This document shows positions 6,951 to 24,368 of a stretch of 64,000 nucleotides of DNA, piece by piece. How positions within the stretch are numbered: the stretch's first letter is position 1; the number at the start of each line of letters is the position of its first letter. The translations under genes were made by a program, and so were the position numbers. The stretch is from assembly GCA_903831255.1 (NCBI GenBank), contig CAIKWZ010000033.1:1-64000 (forward strand), read 5' to 3'. This stretch comes from an uncultured Alphaproteobacteria bacterium (GTDB lineage: Bacteria > Pseudomonadota > Alphaproteobacteria > Caulobacterales > Hyphomonadaceae). Below the pieces are notes generated by a model. It made no database searches, had not been told where the DNA came from, and worked only from the letters and a program-made list of their open reading frames with translations.

Positions 6951-6966
6951 TTAATCGAACGTTAAC
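6951..6966 (+). promoter_or_regulatory. CtrA-like binding box between flgI and fliX
   Basis: TTAATCGAACGTTAAC is an exact TTAA-N7-TTAAC, the Caulobacter CtrA consensus. It sits 45 bp before the fliX start and 116 bp before the flgI start, so it could serve either promoter. Another TTAA lies at 6931. CtrA control of early flagellar genes is known in Caulobacter; here it is inferred. CckA, the kinase upstream of CtrA, is encoded at 29392-31977. Confidence 0.7.
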
Positions 6967-15453: not shown

Positions 15454-16152
15454 GTGGCAAAGAAAGAAAAGAAAAAAAACAAGGCTGAAGAGCCCGATTC
15501 GGAGGCCCTGAATACGGGCGGCGCTGAAGGGGAAGAAGCGTCGACGCCGGAGAAAAAGAAGTTATCCGGTAAGACTCTGGTCCTTTTTGTGATTCTTCCG
15601 GCGCTTTTGGTGATCGGCGGCGGGGGCGCTGCGGCCTTCATGCTGCTTGGCGGAGCCAAACCGTCGACAGAGGTCGCAGAAGCCGGCGCGGAGGGTGAAG
15701 AGAAGCCCGAGGCCGAGAAAAAGGCCAAGAAGGAGGAGGGCAAAAAGGACGCCAAGGGAGGTTCTGGAGAAGAGGGCGCTGAGGGGGAGACGACGGCGGT
15801 CGCTGCGAGCGAGGTCGGATTGCTCACTGTCGGCGAGCCCGGCGATCCATCCTATTACAAGATGCCGAAAATGATTGTGAACCTTGCTTCGGGGTCAGGT
15901 GGGCGGGCCATCGTCATGCAGCTCGATCTCGTTCTCGAATCAGCAGATGCGAAGAACTTCGATGAAATGACCGTGCTTATGCCGCGGCTGACCGACCAGT
16001 TTCAGACTTTTTTGCGTGAACTGCGCGTAGAGGATCTGGAGGGTTCGGCGGGATCCTACAGGCTTAGGCTCGAGCTCCTCAGGCGGTTCAACATCGTCAT
16101 GGCGCCGGCCAAGATCGATGCGGTGCTGATCGAGGGCATGCTGATCAACTAG
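15454..16152 (+). CDS. fliL: Flagellar basal body-associated protein FliL
   Basis: FliL is an inner-membrane protein next to the stator and supports motor torque. The 232-residue protein starts at a GTG with AGGATGAGG upstream. It has a Lys-rich cytoplasmic tail (MAKKEKKKNK), one membrane segment (about 41-66), a long K/E/A/G linker (about 70-125), and the C-terminal FliL domain from YYKMPKMIVNLASG to the end with LRLELLRRFNIVMAP. The charged linker is longer than in E. coli FliL. It starts an operon with fliM and three further genes. Confidence 0.96.
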   Translation: MAKKEKKKNKAEEPDSEALNTGGAEGEEASTPEKKKLSGKTLVLFVILPALLVIGGGGAAAFMLLGGAKPSTEVAEAGAEGEEKPEAEKKAKKEEGKKDAKGGSGEEGAEGETTAVAASEVGLLTVGEPGDPSYYKMPKMIVNLASGSGGRAIVMQLDLVLESADAKNFDEMTVLMPRLTDQFQTFLRELRVEDLEGSAGSYRLRLELLRRFNIVMAPAKIDAVLIEGMLIN

Positions 16153-16162
16153 GGGACGTCCT

Positions 16163-17302
16163 TTGGCTGAGGAAGATGACGATGACATGGCTGCGGCCTG
16201 GGAAGCGAGCGTCGCCTCGGAGGCGGGCTCTCAGGACGATGACCTTGCGGCTTCATGGGAAGCAGAAACTGCGGACGATGCCGGCGGTTCAGGTATTCCT
16301 GGGATCGGCGCTCAGACATCTGAGCGCATCCTTAACCAGGACGAAATCGACAACCTCCTCGGTTTCACGATGGAGGAGGAGACCAACGTCAAGCGCAACG
16401 GCGTTCGTGCGCTCATCAACTCGTCTCTTGTCTCCTACGAGCGACTACCGATGCTCGAGGTGGTGTTCGATCGCCTTGTCCGTCTGATGACCACCAGCCT
16501 CAGAAATTTCACCTCCGATAACGTTGAGGTGAACCTGGATTCCATGCAGTCCATGCGATTCGGGGATTATCTCAACTCGATTTCGCTCCCGGCGATTCTC
16601 TCGGTCTTCAGGGCCAAGCAGCTGGACAATTTCGGCCTGCTGACGGTCGATTCAAATCTGATCTATTCGATTGTCGACGTTCTACTTGGCGGCCGCCGCG
16701 GGACGCTTGCGATGCGAGTTGAGGGGCGACCTTACACAACGATCGAACGTGTGCTTGTGACGCGCCTGGTAGAAGTCATTCTCGCCGATGCGAAGAAGGC
16801 GTTTGATCCATTGACCGAGGTCGATTTCGAGCTCGACCGTATCGAAACCAATCCCCGATTTGCAGCGATCGCGCAGCCGGCAAACGCTGGCATACTGGTT
16901 AAGCTGCGGATCGAGATGGAAGATCGCGGAGGCCGCCTCGAACTCATGCTTCCGTATGCGACCCTTGAGCCGATACGAAAGCTTCTTCTTCAGAACTTCA
17001 TGGGGGAGAAGTTTGGTCGTGACAACATCTGGGAGGGCCACCTTGCAACCGAGTTGTGGTCGGCGCCTGCGACATTGAAGGTCGTCCTCGCCGAATTCCA
17101 GGAGTCATTGGGCCGAATGAAAAATCTTCAGGTCGGGGATACTCTGATCATGAACGCCACGCCTGAAGCAAAGGCGCAGCTGATGTGCGGCGACATTCAC
17201 CTCACTCATGGTCAGGTCGGGCGTATCGGTCATAATGTGGCGATGCGGGTCGAAGCTCCAATTACAAACTCAGCCAAGCGACGTGTTCTGGAGTCGAGAT
17301 GA
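16163..17302 (+). CDS. fliM: Flagellar motor switch protein FliM
   Basis: FliM is the switch subunit of the C-ring that binds phosphorylated CheY. It is 379 residues from a TTG start. The middle domain is clear (LNQDEIDNLLGF at about 58, then MQSMRFGDYLNSISLPAILS), as is the C-terminal SpoA domain (about 290-370, GDTLIMNATPEAKAQLMCGD). The first 40 residues are unusual: DDDMAAAWEASV is followed by DDDLAASWEAET, two copies of one acidic motif, possibly two CheY-contact sites. The next gene overlaps its stop by 4 bp. Confidence 0.97.
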   Translation: MAEEDDDDMAAAWEASVASEAGSQDDDLAASWEAETADDAGGSGIPGIGAQTSERILNQDEIDNLLGFTMEEETNVKRNGVRALINSSLVSYERLPMLEVVFDRLVRLMTTSLRNFTSDNVEVNLDSMQSMRFGDYLNSISLPAILSVFRAKQLDNFGLLTVDSNLIYSIVDVLLGGRRGTLAMRVEGRPYTTIERVLVTRLVEVILADAKKAFDPLTEVDFELDRIETNPRFAAIAQPANAGILVKLRIEMEDRGGRLELMLPYATLEPIRKLLLQNFMGEKFGRDNIWEGHLATELWSAPATLKVVLAEFQESLGRMKNLQVGDTLIMNATPEAKAQLMCGDIHLTHGQVGRIGHNVAMRVEAPITNSAKRRVLESR

Positions 17303-17604
17303 ACATCTTTTCCCTCACGATCGAAATCATTCTGATCAGCCTGCTTCTGATCGCGATCATCTATTGCTGGCGTCTTGATCAGAGACTCAAGACGTTGAGG
17401 TCGGGAAAGGACGGGATGCTCGCCGCCGCCCGGGAACTTCAGATATCGGTCGCTGATGCGCAGAGGGCCGTTGAGATGCTGAGACGGTCAGCAGAAGCAT
17501 CCGGGCGGGATCTGCAGACGAAAATTGATGAGGCGCGCGCTGTCGCCGCCGTTGTTCCGCGAGAGGGACCCGATGCGTCTCTCCGCCGACGCAATGTTTA
17601 CTAG
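17299..17604 (+). CDS. DUF6468-type small membrane protein in fliL operon
   Basis: A 101-residue protein with one N-terminal membrane segment (about 4-27, FSLTIEIILISLLLIAIIYC). A short coiled region with the motif WRLDQRLKTLRSGKDGM follows. Proteins of this type (DUF6468) lie between fliM and a motE-like gene in many alphaproteobacteria, as I recall; their job is not known. It overlaps fliM by 4 bp (ATGA) and precedes the motE-like gene by 9 bp, so it is part of the motor operon. Confidence 0.8.
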   Translation: MNIFSLTIEIILISLLLIAIIYCWRLDQRLKTLRSGKDGMLAAARELQISVADAQRAVEMLRRSAEASGRDLQTKIDEARAVAAVVPREGPDASLRRRNVY

Positions 17605-17613
17605 GAGATCTGC

Positions 17614-18309
17614 ATGAGTGCGACCGTCCGCGTTCTTCCCGCTCTTATCGCCGTCTCGATTGGCGCCCTGGCGTTCAAGGGGGTCGATGTCGCTCAGGCT
17701 TTCGCCGAGGCCAACGAGGCCGCAGATCAGGCGACATCCGCTAAGCCTGAGACCCAGCTGACTTCCGGTATTGCAGACGCGGCATTCCAGAAGGCGGGGG
17801 CTCCGCCGGAGGCAGGAGGTGAGGACGCAGCGAAATGTATTCCAGCCATCGATTACGCCTCTGAAACGGGCATTTCCGAACAGGAGGTCCTTGTCCTGCG
17901 GAGCCTGTCCGACCGGCGTCAGGCCCTCGACGAGAGAGAGGCGGGTCTCGAGACCCGCGAGCAGATGGCGGCTGCGGCGGAGGTGCGGCTGGATGATCAG
18001 ATCTCCAAACTCAAGTCGCTTGAGGGAGACGTTCAGAAGCTTCTGGCCGCTATGGAGGCGAAGCGTGACGAGCGAATGGTTGCTCTGGTTAAGACCTATG
18101 AGGCGATGAAGGCGAAGGACGCCGCGCGGATCTTCGATGGAATGGATGACAAAGTTCTCCTTGAGCTGGCGAAATCCATGAAGCCGGCGAATCTTGCTGC
18201 GGTTCTGGCGGCTATGGATTCCAAGCGTGCTGAAAGCCTGACCCGCATGCTGGCTTCCCTCGCACAGCCCCCCCAAAGCCTGGATGAGCTTCAGAAATCA
18301 GAAGGATGA
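17614..18309 (+). CDS. MotE-like periplasmic flagellar protein (MgtE N-domain type)
   Basis: A 231-residue protein with an N-terminal signal or anchor (about 5-25) and a long coiled coil (about 105-165). The C-terminal MgtE_N-like helical domain includes YEAMKAKDAARIFDGMDD and LAKSMKPANLAAVLAAMD. MotE in Sinorhizobium is a periplasmic chaperone for the motility protein MotC. Here it sits after fliM and DUF6468, and its stop overlaps the start of the 1141-residue TPR protein by 4 bp. That protein may be its client; this is inference. Confidence 0.8.
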   Translation: MSATVRVLPALIAVSIGALAFKGVDVAQAFAEANEAADQATSAKPETQLTSGIADAAFQKAGAPPEAGGEDAAKCIPAIDYASETGISEQEVLVLRSLSDRRQALDEREAGLETREQMAAAAEVRLDDQISKLKSLEGDVQKLLAAMEAKRDERMVALVKTYEAMKAKDAARIFDGMDDKVLLELAKSMKPANLAAVLAAMDSKRAESLTRMLASLAQPPQSLDELQKSEG

Positions 18310-21300
18310 CGTTTCGCCCTCTCCATCTGAAGGCGGCTGTGGGGCTGACGCTTGCGAGCGTCTCGGTCCTCGGCGGCTCATTGCCGGCTTGGGCGCAAAG
18401 AGCCGTGACGATCTCCGTTCAGGATCAAGCCACTCACGCGAGGCTGACGGCGAAGTGGGCCGACGGGGATCTTAAGGCCCCTCGAGTTTCTGCGTCCGTC
18501 TCCTCGCAGGTTCTGCTGCTTCGATTTGATCAGAAAGTGAAGCTCGACGCCGAGGCTCTCAAGAAGGATCTTGGAGGCTGGGCGGCTCTGGTCCGTCTCG
18601 ATCCTGACGGGATGACGGCTCGGATCGGCCTGACCAGAACGCCTCGTCTACACATCTCCACATCGATGGATCTTACAGCGATCGATCTTGTTCGTGCCGG
18701 GGTCAGTGAAGATCCGCCGGATGTCGTCTCTCCCCTCGTTATCAAGAAGGCCGAGGTCGCTGCGGCTCCGCCCCCCCCGCCGCCGCCTGCGGCTATCGTG
18801 CCTGTAGAGGTCAGGGGAAGCCACTATGGTGACAACTCGAGGGTCGCCTTCTACTGGGCGGAAAAGGTCGCCTACAAGGTAGCCGAGCAGGGACCGGACT
18901 TCATCACCCTGCAGTTCGCCAAGCGAGCCAAGCCTGACGTCGCCTATATGCGCATTTCTCCTCCAGCCAATGTGGGCGCCTTCGAGACCGAGAATACCGA
19001 TAAGGGTTATCGGGTCACCCTGCGGTCAAAGGATAAGCTTCCTATTCGGCACTATGTCGAAGAAGGCATCCCCATAGTCGACATCGGGGTTCTTAAGGCG
19101 GAAGCCGCTGATCCGAATGAGGCGCCGCTGTCGCCTCCGCCTCCGCGTGCGCAGGGACGTCCGATTCTTCTTACTCCCCCAAAACAGGTGATCGGCGAGG
19201 GGGGGGCTCCGCCGCCGCCGCCCCCGCCCCCGACTGCGGCTCCGCAGGTGGCTGTTATTGGCGGTGAGGCTCGGGTGACCGCTCTTGGGCCGAGGTGGCG
19301 TGATCCGGCGCCTCGTGGAGCGTCCATCCAGGTCGATGTCGGCGTTGTCGGCGATGGAGTGGAGTTCACCACGTCCTTTCCAAGTCCGGCGGCTGCGGCT
19401 GTTTTTTCGCGAGGAAGCGCCGTCTGGGTCGTTTTTGCTTCCAATGCCGCACTGAAGATGGACCAGGCTGATCTGCCCCGCGGCTTCAGAGCGCGGGTAA
19501 TCCGTGGTCAGAACGCGACGATGATGCGTATCGAGCCGCCCAAGGGTCTTAAGGTATCGGCGGAGGCTGAAGGCTCGACCTGGACGGTCCGGTTCGCTGC
19601 TGTCCCGCTCAAGCCAAGCCGCTTTCTGAAGTCTGAGCGCAAGCCGTCTGATGACGGGCGTATGCGCATTGAGACCATGCTCGTGGGCGCCACGGGTCTG
19701 ATCTGGTTCGACGATCCCGTTATCGGCGATCAGCTGGCGGTTGCCGTATCGTATGGGCCGTCCTCTGCATCTCCTACGGCAAGAGACTTTGTGGAGGCCT
19801 CTTTTCCCGCCACCGCTCACGGTGTCGCGATTGCTCCGAAGTCGGATCAGGTGCTCGCCCTGATCGAGGGCGAACGCGTGGTGGTCGCGCTGGGCCGAGC
19901 TGTGGAACAGTTGGCAAGCGATCCCAAGTCATCTGCCGGATCGCCTCCGCCCCCGCCGCCACCGCCCCCACCCAGCACCCGATCTGCGTGTATTGATTTC
20001 GCCAAGTGGGGCGGTAAGTCCGGTGAGGCGTGGCTTAAAGAGCGACAGACGCTCGAATCCTACGCCTCCAAGCTCGAGCCGACAAAGCCGCAGACCGCCA
20101 CAGCGATCATCGCCCTCGCGCGTTTCTATCTTGGTCACGAATTGGCCTTTGAGGCCCTCGGACTTCTGCGCGCCGCCTCGATCTCTCAGCCGGCTCTTGA
20201 GCTTGACCCAAAGTTTCTTGGTCTCAGGGCTGCAGCCAATGTCATGGCTGGACGAATGGCCGCTGCGGAGGCGGATCTTTCGCGAGAGCTGCTGAAGGGC
20301 GATCGGTCTGCTGCCCTCTGGCGCGCCATGGTCGCCGTTAATCGCCGGGAATGGCCTCGTGCAGTGCAGTTCTTCGGAGAGGCCGAAGGCGAGATTGAAA
20401 AGTATCCTCCACAATGGGCCGCGCGGTTTGAAGTGGCGTCGGCGGAAGCCCTGTTCAACACGAACGATTATGATGCAGCCCGGCGTCTTGCCCAGCATGT
20501 GGTGGATACGGGCCCTCGGCTCGAGGCGGACCGAGCGAGGCTTGTGCTGGCAAATCTTGCCGCTGTCATCGATGGCCCGGATGTAGGTTATGGAAAGTTC
20601 GCCCAGCTCACTCGGTCTGCTCTCGAGCCGGTCGCGGTGAAGGCTGAGCTGCGTCGCATCGAGACAGGATCGGCTGCGGGAAAGATCGCGGTCAAGGATG
20701 CTGTCGATGGTCTTGACGCTCTGCGGTATCGCTGGCGCGGCGACACGCTTGAGCTCGAAACTGTGGCCGTTCTGTCTGACCAGCACATGAAGGCCGGGCG
20801 CTTCCGTGAGGCGCTCGTCGTTCTCCAGTCGGCAGCGCTGCGTGATCCTGCCGCTGTCGGCGCCCGCGAGGTGCGAGTGCGGCTCAGCGATTACTTCCGT
20901 CGTCTTTACCTTGATGGCGAAGTTGATCGTCTGGACCCTATTCAGGCGCTGGCTCTTTACTATGAGTTCGCTGACCTTACGCCCATCGGGTCAGATGGCG
21001 ATCTGATGGTGAGAAAACTGGCTCAGCGTCTGGTTGCATTCGATCTGCTCGAGCCGGCGGCGAGTCTGCTCCAGCATCAGGTTGATAATCGGATGCGCGG
21101 CATGGGTCGCTCGTCGATTGCTGTCGACCTTGCGACAATCTACCTGCTCAACAAACAGCCGGATCTGGCCTTGTCGGCGATTGACAGAACCCGACAGCCC
21201 GGCATGCCGAGGGAGCTCATGCTTGAGCGGCGCCTCCTTGAGGCGGCGGCCTATAGAGACATGGGCCGATTTGATAACGTGATCGAGCTTGTCGAACCGC

Positions 21301-21731
21301 TCGAGACGCCTGAGGCGCGATCGTTCCTGGCCGACGCCTATTGGCGTGATCGGAAGTGGTCCGATGCTGCTCGAACCTATATGGCGATGCTTCCCCCACC
21401 GAATGAGGCTGTTAAACCCGCTCACGCTGACATCGCCATGCGTGCGGCAATCTCCGGCCGGCTGGCGCGGGACATGACCCTTCTGGCGGATCTCCGGACG
21501 CGTTACGGCGCTTTGTTTCAGGGCAATCCCAATCAAGCGAGCTTCGAACTGATGACGTCCCAGGCCGAAGTTGGAGGCGCCGGTTTGTCAGAGGCGGCGC
21601 GCCGAATGGCCGACGCTCCCCGTGTCGATGCATTCTCTGCGGCCATGAAGGCGCGCCTGCAGGGCCGCTCCTCCGCCCCCGCTTCAGGAGCTGCCGCACC
21701 CAAGACCTCCGGAGCGCCTGCGTCCGGGTAA
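18306..21731 (+). CDS. Large periplasmic TPR protein with three polyproline runs
   Basis: A 1141-residue protein with a cleavable signal peptide (about 1-30, ending AWAQ). The N-terminal half has beta-rich repeats of about 140 residues with AMIN-like character (VLLLRFDQKVKLD, VTLRSKDKLPIRHYV). These are parted by proline runs near residues 156-163, 300-309 and 546-556. The C-terminal half (about 570-1110) is helical with TPR-like repeats (ALARFYLGHELAFEALGLLR, LYYEFADLT, ALVVLQSAAL). It overlaps the motE-like stop by 4 bp and is the last gene of the fliL operon. Similar proteins occur at this place in other alphaproteobacteria, as I recall, but no function is known to me. A motor or stator scaffold across the periplasm is a reasonable guess. 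Confidence 0.8.
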   Translation: MTFRPLHLKAAVGLTLASVSVLGGSLPAWAQRAVTISVQDQATHARLTAKWADGDLKAPRVSASVSSQVLLLRFDQKVKLDAEALKKDLGGWAALVRLDPDGMTARIGLTRTPRLHISTSMDLTAIDLVRAGVSEDPPDVVSPLVIKKAEVAAAPPPPPPPAAIVPVEVRGSHYGDNSRVAFYWAEKVAYKVAEQGPDFITLQFAKRAKPDVAYMRISPPANVGAFETENTDKGYRVTLRSKDKLPIRHYVEEGIPIVDIGVLKAEAADPNEAPLSPPPPRAQGRPILLTPPKQVIGEGGAPPPPPPPPTAAPQVAVIGGEARVTALGPRWRDPAPRGASIQVDVGVVGDGVEFTTSFPSPAAAAVFSRGSAVWVVFASNAALKMDQADLPRGFRARVIRGQNATMMRIEPPKGLKVSAEAEGSTWTVRFAAVPLKPSRFLKSERKPSDDGRMRIETMLVGATGLIWFDDPVIGDQLAVAVSYGPSSASPTARDFVEASFPATAHGVAIAPKSDQVLALIEGERVVVALGRAVEQLASDPKSSAGSPPPPPPPPPPSTRSACIDFAKWGGKSGEAWLKERQTLESYASKLEPTKPQTATAIIALARFYLGHELAFEALGLLRAASISQPALELDPKFLGLRAAANVMAGRMAAAEADLSRELLKGDRSAALWRAMVAVNRREWPRAVQFFGEAEGEIEKYPPQWAARFEVASAEALFNTNDYDAARRLAQHVVDTGPRLEADRARLVLANLAAVIDGPDVGYGKFAQLTRSALEPVAVKAELRRIETGSAAGKIAVKDAVDGLDALRYRWRGDTLELETVAVLSDQHMKAGRFREALVVLQSAALRDPAAVGAREVRVRLSDYFRRLYLDGEVDRLDPIQALALYYEFADLTPIGSDGDLMVRKLAQRLVAFDLLEPAASLLQHQVDNRMRGMGRSSIAVDLATIYLLNKQPDLALSAIDRTRQPGMPRELMLERRLLEAAAYRDMGRFDNVIELVEPLETPEARSFLADAYWRDRKWSDAARTYMAMLPPPNEAVKPAHADIAMRAAISGRLARDMTLLADLRTRYGALFQGNPNQASFELMTSQAEVGGAGLSEAARRMADAPRVDAFSAAMKARLQGRSSAPASGAAAPKTSGAPASG

Positions 21732-22177: not shown

Positions 22178-23092
22178 TTAAACGCCATCGTCACGCTCTC
22201 CCGGATTGCCGAGCTGCAAGCCGGCGAAATCGAAAACCGAGGGGTCTGTGAGGTGCGATAGCCTGACATTTCCCAAAGCTCTCGCCATCACCTGTCGCTT
22301 TCCTGGGTTTTTCCGCTCCCAGTCGTTCAGCATCGATTTGATCGCCATTCTCTGAAGTCCATCCTGGGAGCCGCAAAGATTGCAGGGAATGATCGGAAAC
22401 TGCATAGCAGCTGCGAATCTGGCGATGTCGGCCTCAGCGCACTGAATAAGCGGTCTCAGCACAAAGACGTCTCCAACGTCATTGACGAGCTTGGGAGGCA
22501 TGGCGGCAAGGCGCCCACCGTGCAGGAGGTTCAACATGAAGGTTTCTACGGAATCGTCGCGATGATGCCCGAGGACAATTGCGTCGCATCCTTCCTCTCT
22601 CGCGACCCGGTAGAGAATGCCTCGCCTCAACCGTGAGCAGAGTGAACAATAGGTGCTGGTCGCGGGCAGCTTTTCTGTGACGATTGAATATGTGTCTTCG
22701 GTGATGATGCGAAAATCGACCCCGAGGGTCTTCAGGTAATCGGGCAGAACATGTTTGGGAAAGCCTGGCTGCCCCTGATCGAGATTGCAGGCCAGAAGAT
22801 CGACAGGAAGCGCGCCCTGCCACTGGAGATCCAGAAGCAGGGCAAGGAGCGTGTAGCTGTCCTTTCCTCCTGACAGGCAGACCAGCCAGCGTGGTCGAGA
22901 TCCGTCCTGTCTCGGAGTGCACATTCCATAGACTCGGATGGCTTCCTGAACCTGTCTGACGAGCCGCTTTCGCAGTTTCCCGAATGTCACGCCTCCAGGC
23001 GCCACGGAGAAGACGGGATGCAGGCGTGGCGCCTCCCAAACGACCCCGGGGTCGTCAGCTTCGTCGTCAGAATCGATAAGGTCGTCCGCCAT
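22178..23092 (-). CDS. ttcA: tRNA 2-thiocytidine synthetase TtcA
   Basis: TtcA makes 2-thiocytidine at position 32 of some tRNAs using ATP and an iron-sulfur cluster. The 304-residue protein has the PP-loop SGGKDS at 74-79, the CxxC pair CSLC at 149-152, and a second CNLC near 240. It has an acidic 22-residue N-terminal tail before the conserved start. It stands alone between the TPR gene and the fliOP operon on the minus strand. Confidence 0.96.
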
Positions 23093-24352: not shown

Positions 24353-24368
24353 TTAATCAAAACTTAAG
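24353..24368 (+). promoter_or_regulatory. CtrA-like box before flgB
   Basis: TTAATCAAAACTTAAG is TTAA-N7-TTAA with G in place of the final C of the CtrA consensus. It lies 38 bp before the flgB start and is followed after 9 bp by CGATTTTGCCGGG (24378-24390), the same 13-mer as in the fliL promoter. The spacing suits an early flagellar promoter overlapped by CtrA. Confidence 0.6.

Follow-up and report, generated by a model that had tools for sequence, protein, structure and literature searches.

FssB of Caulobacter crescentus (CC_2058, CCNA_02137) is described as a tetratricopeptide repeat (TPR) protein with a Sec signal; its deletion leaves cells that carry filaments and do not swim, like a motB mutant, and suppresses the stator-dependent adhesion response (PMC7885107). 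MotK of the Cereibacter sphaeroides Fla2 flagellum, described in a 2024 paper, is essential for rotation, binds MotE and MotB2 and is located at the flagellated pole in a stator-dependent manner. It comprises a signal sequence, an N-terminus that resembles AMIN, stretches that are disordered and rich in proline, and a TPR-like part, and is encoded in the cluster fliL2-pflI-motE-motA2-motK; with BLAST, its authors found motK to have no similarity to the genes of Caulobacteraceae (PMC10954123). CC_2059 and MotE have been proposed as E-ring proteins, and CC_2058 and MotK as PflA-like (PMC13023049, PMC11870540), PflA being the protein that forms the spokes from E-ring to rim (PMC12222027, PMC11870540). 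The stretch analysed here, 64,000 nucleotides of contig CAIKWZ010000033.1 from an uncultured member of the Hyphomonadaceae (hereafter the window), contains a gene for a protein of 1141 amino acids (aa) that very probably belongs, as its Hyphomonadaceae form, to the MotK/FssB (CC_2058) family of Alphaproteobacteria, the PflA-like spokes of the motor's periplasmic scaffold.

The N-terminus of the 1141-aa protein has a hydropathy maximum at aa 10-28 and an Ala-Trp-Ala/Gln site, both read from the sequence and not from a signal-peptide predictor. Pfam and NCBIfam yield weak TPR matches, one of the Pfam matches at its cut-off, and give the protein no family name. The AlphaFold2 model of the full protein, based on an 11-sequence alignment (mean predicted local distance difference test, pLDDT, 71; predicted template modelling score, pTM, 0.43), possesses three beta domains of similar strand order at aa 34-129, 164-260 and 340-431, a beta-rich stretch at aa 443-529 that is modelled poorly, and a helical solenoid at aa 565-1120. 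The three domains are reproduced when aa 32-436 are modelled alone (pLDDT 78.9, pTM 0.36). The gene and its parts are located as follows, with expectation values given as E:

18306..21731, forward strand: motK/fssB/pflA-like gene, ATG start, 1141 aa, TPR protein with a signal-like N-terminus
18306..18398, forward strand: predicted signal peptide, aa 1-31, probably cleaved after Ala-Trp-Ala (sequence, hydropathy; pLDDT below 50)
18399..18755, forward strand: AMIN-type beta domain 1, aa ~32-150, 8 strands at 34-129 (model; MotK-type AMIN match, E 3.2e-6)
18768..18788, forward strand: run of 7 prolines, aa 155-161, at the junction of AMIN 1 and AMIN 2
18795..19091, forward strand: AMIN-type beta domain 2, aa ~164-262 (model; MotK-type AMIN match, E 1.6e-9)
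19209..19232, forward strand: run of 8 prolines, aa 302-309, in the linker of AMIN 2 and AMIN 3
19317..19607, forward strand: AMIN-type beta domain 3, aa ~338-434 (model; alone not significant against the MotK type, E 0.02)
19608..19925, forward strand: conserved module, aa ~435-540 (mean column identity 0.48 across the family; pLDDT below 50)
19944..19973, forward strand: run of 10 prolines, aa 547-556, preceding the TPR half
19998..21665, forward strand: TPR solenoid, aa 565-1120, best-conserved stretch at aa 881-960 (weak Pfam matches, model, conservation)

A preliminary description of the gene, made from the letters alone, had already named a signal peptide, proline runs of 7 to 10 residues and a long TPR half, all of which are found again here, the first as a prediction. 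Its beta-rich segments are likewise present; they are now resolved into three AMIN-type domains plus the module at aa 435-540. Hidden Markov models (HMMs) of the single domains match each other's positions in many family members; the domain-2 HMM, for example, matches domain 1 of L157 (E 2e-10) and domain 3 of L145 (E 4e-11; both for a set of 60). The three beta domains are therefore regarded as homologous repeats. Conservation is highest at aa 881-960, where two 40-residue blocks reach mean column identities of 0.78 and 0.73, the other blocks ranging from 0.32 to 0.64 (20 of 21 rows; L041, whose gene is split, is left out).

The same description took the three polyproline runs for hinges. As functional hinges shared by the family they are rejected, since runs of at least 5 prolines occur in just 4 of 37 family proteins; they occur in none of the 23 MotK-type proteins introduced below. 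Runs of at least 7 prolines are confined, in the 11-sequence alignment, to the window protein and a relative of 94% identity. Because long runs are restricted to the window species and its nearest relative and occur singly in L079, L153 and L041, they are probably spacers, a local elaboration of the linkers and not a conserved hinge. Shorter runs of 4 (aa 277-280) and 3 prolines (aa 1030-1032) are also present in the window protein.

Relationship to MotK is provided by gene order and by profiles. Two genomes of the window's order (loci L107 and L091) possess the order fliL-DUF6468-motE-motA-X-flgF, which equals the printed Cereibacter order as far as motK (PMC10954123). Pfam confirms FliL, DUF6468, MgtE_N and MotA at both loci, X encodes 782 and 770 aa, respectively, and a profile of the two X proteins finds matches in 40 of 62 genomes of X's own family. 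The MotK-type set was defined by gene order in these two loci and by profile for the rest, and comprises 23 proteins after one of 24 (L139), whose longest open reading frame (ORF) lay on the wrong strand, was dropped. Aligned profile to profile, 21 window-family and the 23 MotK-type proteins match with a probability of 98.9 and E 1.3e-17 (one-to-one) over 677 columns, in which AMIN pairs with AMIN and TPR with TPR, and reversed-profile controls on either side reach E 0.04 and 0.15 at best. At the level of sequence profiles, the window family and the MotK-type proteins are thus homologous. The TPR half matches the MotK-type profile with E 7.8e-13, and 22 of the 23 MotK-type proteins have an AMIN that the domain-2 HMM detects with E < 0.01. 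When the MotK-type side holds just two sequences, hhalign gives a weak match (probability 73), and a single MotK-type protein as query across the class finds matches in 7 of 387 genomes. One genome (G052) holds two flagellar clusters, fliL-fliM-motE-TPR (L085) and fliL-DUF6468-motE-motA-MotK-type-flgF (L091), so that a single genome can carry both types of spoke.

The place after motE, the N-terminal AMIN-type domain and the C-terminal TPR or helical half of the MotK/FssB family are all found in the window gene and its product. CC_2058/FssB resembles the latter as a TPR protein with a Sec signal (a predicted one in the window protein), encoded directly after the motE-like CC_2059, and as a protein with an AMIN-type N-terminus (PMC7885107, PMC10954123, PMC13023049). 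Its printed AMIN domain covers residues 36-132, in contrast to the three AMIN domains within the 1141 aa of the window protein. The layout of L083 and L086 (973 and 969 aa, two AMIN domains, AMIN at 34-133 and 38-133), which are possibly Caulobacter loci, fits the printed description of CC_2058. MotK shares with the window protein the fliL-pflI-motE cluster, a signal sequence (predicted for the window protein), the succession of AMIN and helical or TPR half and the proline-rich disordered stretches, but is described with 652 aa and a single AMIN domain, and with motA between motE and motK (PMC10954123); the window operon contains fliM and no motA. PflA of Campylobacter jejuni likewise combines an N-terminal, AMIN-like beta-sandwich, a flexible linker and a TPR superhelix (PMC12222027, PMC11870540), but has one beta-sandwich, and its linker wraps the partner PflB. 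MotC of Sinorhizobium meliloti, a periplasmic TPR protein that partners MotE and is required for the motor to function, resembles what is proposed for the window protein; unlike MotK it is described as a TPR protein without additional AMIN domain (PMC13023049). Rhizobiaceae motE is situated between flgI and flgH (PMC10954123), unlike the fliL-fliM-DUF6468-motE arrangement of the window.

The number of AMIN domains varies. The MotK type has one, six proteins of the order's family f2 have two and the other 15 of the 21 window-family proteins three. AMIN 1 is judged absent in the six f2 proteins; domain-1 matches nonetheless occur in L077, inside an apparently over-extended start, and in L083, on the domain-2 stretch. 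Among 16 further high-scoring proteins of the class, 15, from seven families, possess all three domains; the 16 were taken among the 20 best-scoring loci and are biased to good matches, so this share is not representative. Many matches of the class search begin near model position 120-170, as expected of two-domain forms. The accessible open literature, which excludes most subscription journals and all supplements, yielded no description of three AMIN domains in this family. On the predicted structure, three tandem AMIN-type domains would be a new detail, a more elaborate N-terminal arm on a known kind of protein.

The structure prediction proposed in the preliminary description points in the same direction. 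Foldseek with the full AlphaFold2 model against 350,542 PDB chains ranks 9hmf_K first (E 1.9e-10, 894 columns), a 773-residue chain of the Campylobacter jejuni flagellar motor periplasmic scaffold, which we take to be PflA from its chain length, the table carrying no chain names. Rank 2 is a chain of a Pol II elongation complex (E 1.1e-7). Altogether 176 chains pass E 0.001, among them 9hmf_L at rank 46, and most of the best 50 belong to eukaryotic complexes. Searched alone, the beta region matches PilQ (3jc8_Qa, E 7.8e-5), the PilQ B2 domain (4aqz, rank 2, E 5.7e-3) and AmiC (4bin, rank 5, E 2.8e-2). AMIN domains of AmiC and PilQ bind peptidoglycan. The AMIN domain of AmiC is also the best hit given by the MotK authors (PMC10954123).

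Gene linkage and co-occurrence agree with a flagellar role. The 1141-aa ORF shares the letters ATGA with the stop of the motE-like gene, which confirms the 4-bp (base pair) overlap in the preliminary description, and the overlap is kept in 9 of 9 loci holding both genes (12 loci from named records). The gene is the last of its run, again as described before, and is followed on the opposite strand by ttcA (22178-23092). In the order, motE and the TPR gene are adjacent in 33 of 39 genomes holding both. Among 61 genomes from the window's own genome up to its order, 39 possess both the TPR protein and FliM, 20 neither, and 2 are discordant, i.e. G002, a 540-contig assembly without FliM match, and G048, which has a weaker FliM and no match to the TPR protein. 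A later BLAST search of G048 with the window proteins found a weak relative in L090, a 564-aa ORF (E 9e-10) that, by eye, adjoins a motA-like gene. Across 387 Alphaproteobacteria, with counts uncorrected for kinship and at most two candidates per genome scored, the family profile matches 208 and FliM 219 genomes (194 both, 154 neither, 39 discordant); weak profile matches may represent other TPR proteins. The discordant genomes comprise 14 with the profile only and 25 with FliM only, 21 of the latter with a FliM that counts as weak (E > 1e-45; this cut was set after the values had been seen). By that same cut, 188 genomes have a strong FliM. The single profile recovers the gene in 184 of these at E 1e-3, and tightening the threshold to 1e-20 and 1e-50 leaves 179 and 170, respectively; it finds the gene even in six order-level genomes where the gene lies away from motE.

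Eight genomes of family members (L099-L105 and L108; G027, G026, G018, G022, G021, G017, G033 and G029) are without PF02154 FliM match and likewise without match to the TPR family at E 1e-3. They hold a divergent motE-like gene by BLAST, DUF6468 in all eight at E 1e-3 (six matches exceed the cut-off) and FliL in 4 of 8, and possibly represent a remnant or another type of flagellum whose FliM has diverged.

The predicted structure, the homology seen by profile, the operon and the co-occurrence with FliM all agree, and the scaffold of stator or motor in the periplasm that the preliminary description had guessed at is well supported. Its statement that no function is described for such a protein is superseded by the reports that fssB deletion paralyses the flagellum (PMC7885107) and that MotK is essential for rotation (PMC10954123), and its analogy to MotE as a chaperone conflicts with a 2026 review, in which the chaperone role is doubted and MotE likely forms the E-ring (PMC13023049). 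By analogy with the paralysed mutants of FssB and MotK, and with MotK's binding to MotE and MotB and its polar location, the following mechanism is proposed for the window organism. The protein would be exported by Sec, and its TPR superhelix would dock on the E-ring of the neighbouring MotE-like protein, probably through the strongly conserved repeats at aa 881-960, and reach outward. The three AMIN-type domains, on disordered proline-rich linkers, may bind peptidoglycan, components of rim and stator, or both. Such a spoke would recruit, position or activate the MotA/MotB stators, and without it the filament should be present yet unable to rotate. The protein may work like PflA on the evidence of its model, and is not filed as PflA because PDB searches found no recognisable sequence homology to it. 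PflA is not conserved in sequence according to a 2025 preprint (PMC11870540).

Several points weigh against the assignment as a PflA-like spoke of the MotK/FssB family. The match to 9hmf_K has template modelling scores of 0.14 and 0.20 and a root mean square deviation of 43.5, and the pTM of the full model is low (0.43), so the likeness is local only. Moreover, 9hmf is an alpha-carbon trace built on AlphaFold models, with chain K assigned by its length, and the published PflA and PflB models are AlphaFold predictions fitted into a map (PMC12222027). For the beta region only rank 1 lies below E 0.001, and small heat-shock proteins, also beta-sandwiches, appear from rank 7. A PDB sequence search with the 1141-aa protein (E up to 1) gives one chance match and no PflA chain; with the family profile (E up to 10) it gives 29 chains, mostly designed TPR proteins, and again no PflA. 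Neither AMIN 3 alone (E 0.02) nor the module at aa 440-545 (E 0.35) has a significant MotK-type match. Family membership is derived from MotK-type stand-ins by sequence, CC_2058 and MotK being matched by description and PflA by description and model. In 6 of the 39 order-level genomes the TPR gene is apart from motE, on different contigs with other genes between; three of these cases lie beside fliP-flgBC-fliE and three have none of the window's tested flagellar genes in the stretch read. The kinship and the cut mentioned with the class counts also belong here.

Three other explanations were weighed, all improbable. The protein could be a flagellum-linked, peptidoglycan-binding sensor that couples motor load to surface-attachment signalling, its effect on torque being indirect. 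FssB was found in a surface-adhesion signalling screen and acts in a stator-dependent mechanical pathway (PMC7885107), and the fold of the beta part resembles those of AmiC and PilQ; both points suit a sensor. The fssB deletion, on the other hand, is non-motile with filaments, as is the motB mutant (PMC7885107), and motK mutants are paralysed (PMC10954123), so that the mechanical role comes first and a sensor is unlikely. Less likely still, the protein would serve chiefly to fold or stabilise the MotE-like protein and would itself not be a structural part of the motor. MotE is unstable without MotK in Cereibacter (PMC10954123) and MotC is degraded without MotE in Sinorhizobium (PMC13023049), but MotK is found at the flagellated pole, dependent on the stator (PMC10954123). 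The best structural match is moreover a known motor scaffold (9hmf_K), and a large multidomain protein would be an odd chaperone. Least credible is that the protein belongs to a different machine of the envelope, as a PilQ-like or general TPR/AMIN protein, and stands at the operon end by chance: PilQ is the best fold for the beta part and TPR and AMIN domains are common, but the gene co-occurs with FliM class-wide and is present in FliM-bearing genomes even if unlinked from motE, no secretin family is among the Pfam matches of the protein, and its own genome holds a single match to it up to E 10.

Taken as a MotK/FssB-family spoke, the protein reveals no new kind of system and is a larger member of a known family. 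E-ring and spokes have only recently received a molecular identity, and PflA-like spokes are unconserved in sequence and hence hard to find (PMC11870540). The profile links the window family to the MotK type; BLAST had shown the MotK authors no such connection for the Caulobacteraceae genes (PMC10954123). With this link and a single profile for the class, the family becomes easier to annotate, and the forms with one, two and three AMIN domains offer a series for testing the arm. It is a speculative and rather doubtful idea that all belong to one near-universal alphaproteobacterial family in which AMIN number and linker length act as a ruler. The series would run from one AMIN domain (MotK type) through two (f2 of the order) to three (in Hyphomonadaceae and in no fewer than seven further families of the class), on variable and often proline-rich linkers. 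If true, AMIN number and linker length would set the grip points on the cell wall and the distance of the stator, hence stator radius and torque.

The other genes of the run are:

17614..18309, forward strand: motE-like gene, E-ring candidate, with N-terminal hydrophobic segment, single Cys75 and C-terminal MgtE_N match just under the cut-off
17299..17604, forward strand: DUF6468 gene, pflI-like (Pfam; the name pflI is taken by position from PMC10954123)
16163..17302, forward strand: fliM (family match)
15454..16152, forward strand: fliL (family match)

The order flgF-flgG-flgA-flgH runs leftward and, divergent from it, fliL-fliM-DUF6468-motE-1141-aa gene runs rightward. Downstream of the latter, ttcA and fliP on the other strand are followed by flgB-flgC-fliE, flgC being assigned by position only. 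The window genome has two MotB-plug matches, the better one with E 4.9e-20. The MgtE_N match of the motE-like protein has E 5.9e-5 (24.0 bits, cut-off 25.9), and it reaches 22.4 bits against the FlbB model (cut-off 110). Its single Cys75 is invariant in 10 of 10 MotE-like proteins and, judged from the sequences, fits the reported cysteine through which MotE dimerises (PMC10954123).

Comparison with L031 (94% identical) gives 410 synonymous and 64 non-synonymous codon differences for the 1141-aa gene. The resulting non-synonymous divergence (dN) of 0.029 against a synonymous one (dS) of 0.78 indicates strong purifying selection, and the ORF is not a chance one. In the chromosome record of Hyphomonas sp. 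ih12 (CP051229.1; L041:5923-9410) two overlapping frames (1025 and 137 aa) together make up the gene, owing to either a frameshift or a sequencing error. A contig labelled Planctomycetaceae (L042:6001-6189) contains a short piece of 36% identity to aa 954-1028, which is either a contaminating contig or a short TPR match.

Promoter and terminator scans across the operon gave no signal above shuffles, and no exact TTAA-N7-TTAA, which we take to be the CtrA-type motif, was found upstream of fliL. Exact copies of this motif occur in the window at 6951-6965, ~70 bp upstream of flgI, and at 24353-24367, ~33 bp upstream of the flgB-like gene, with 0.02 expected by chance.

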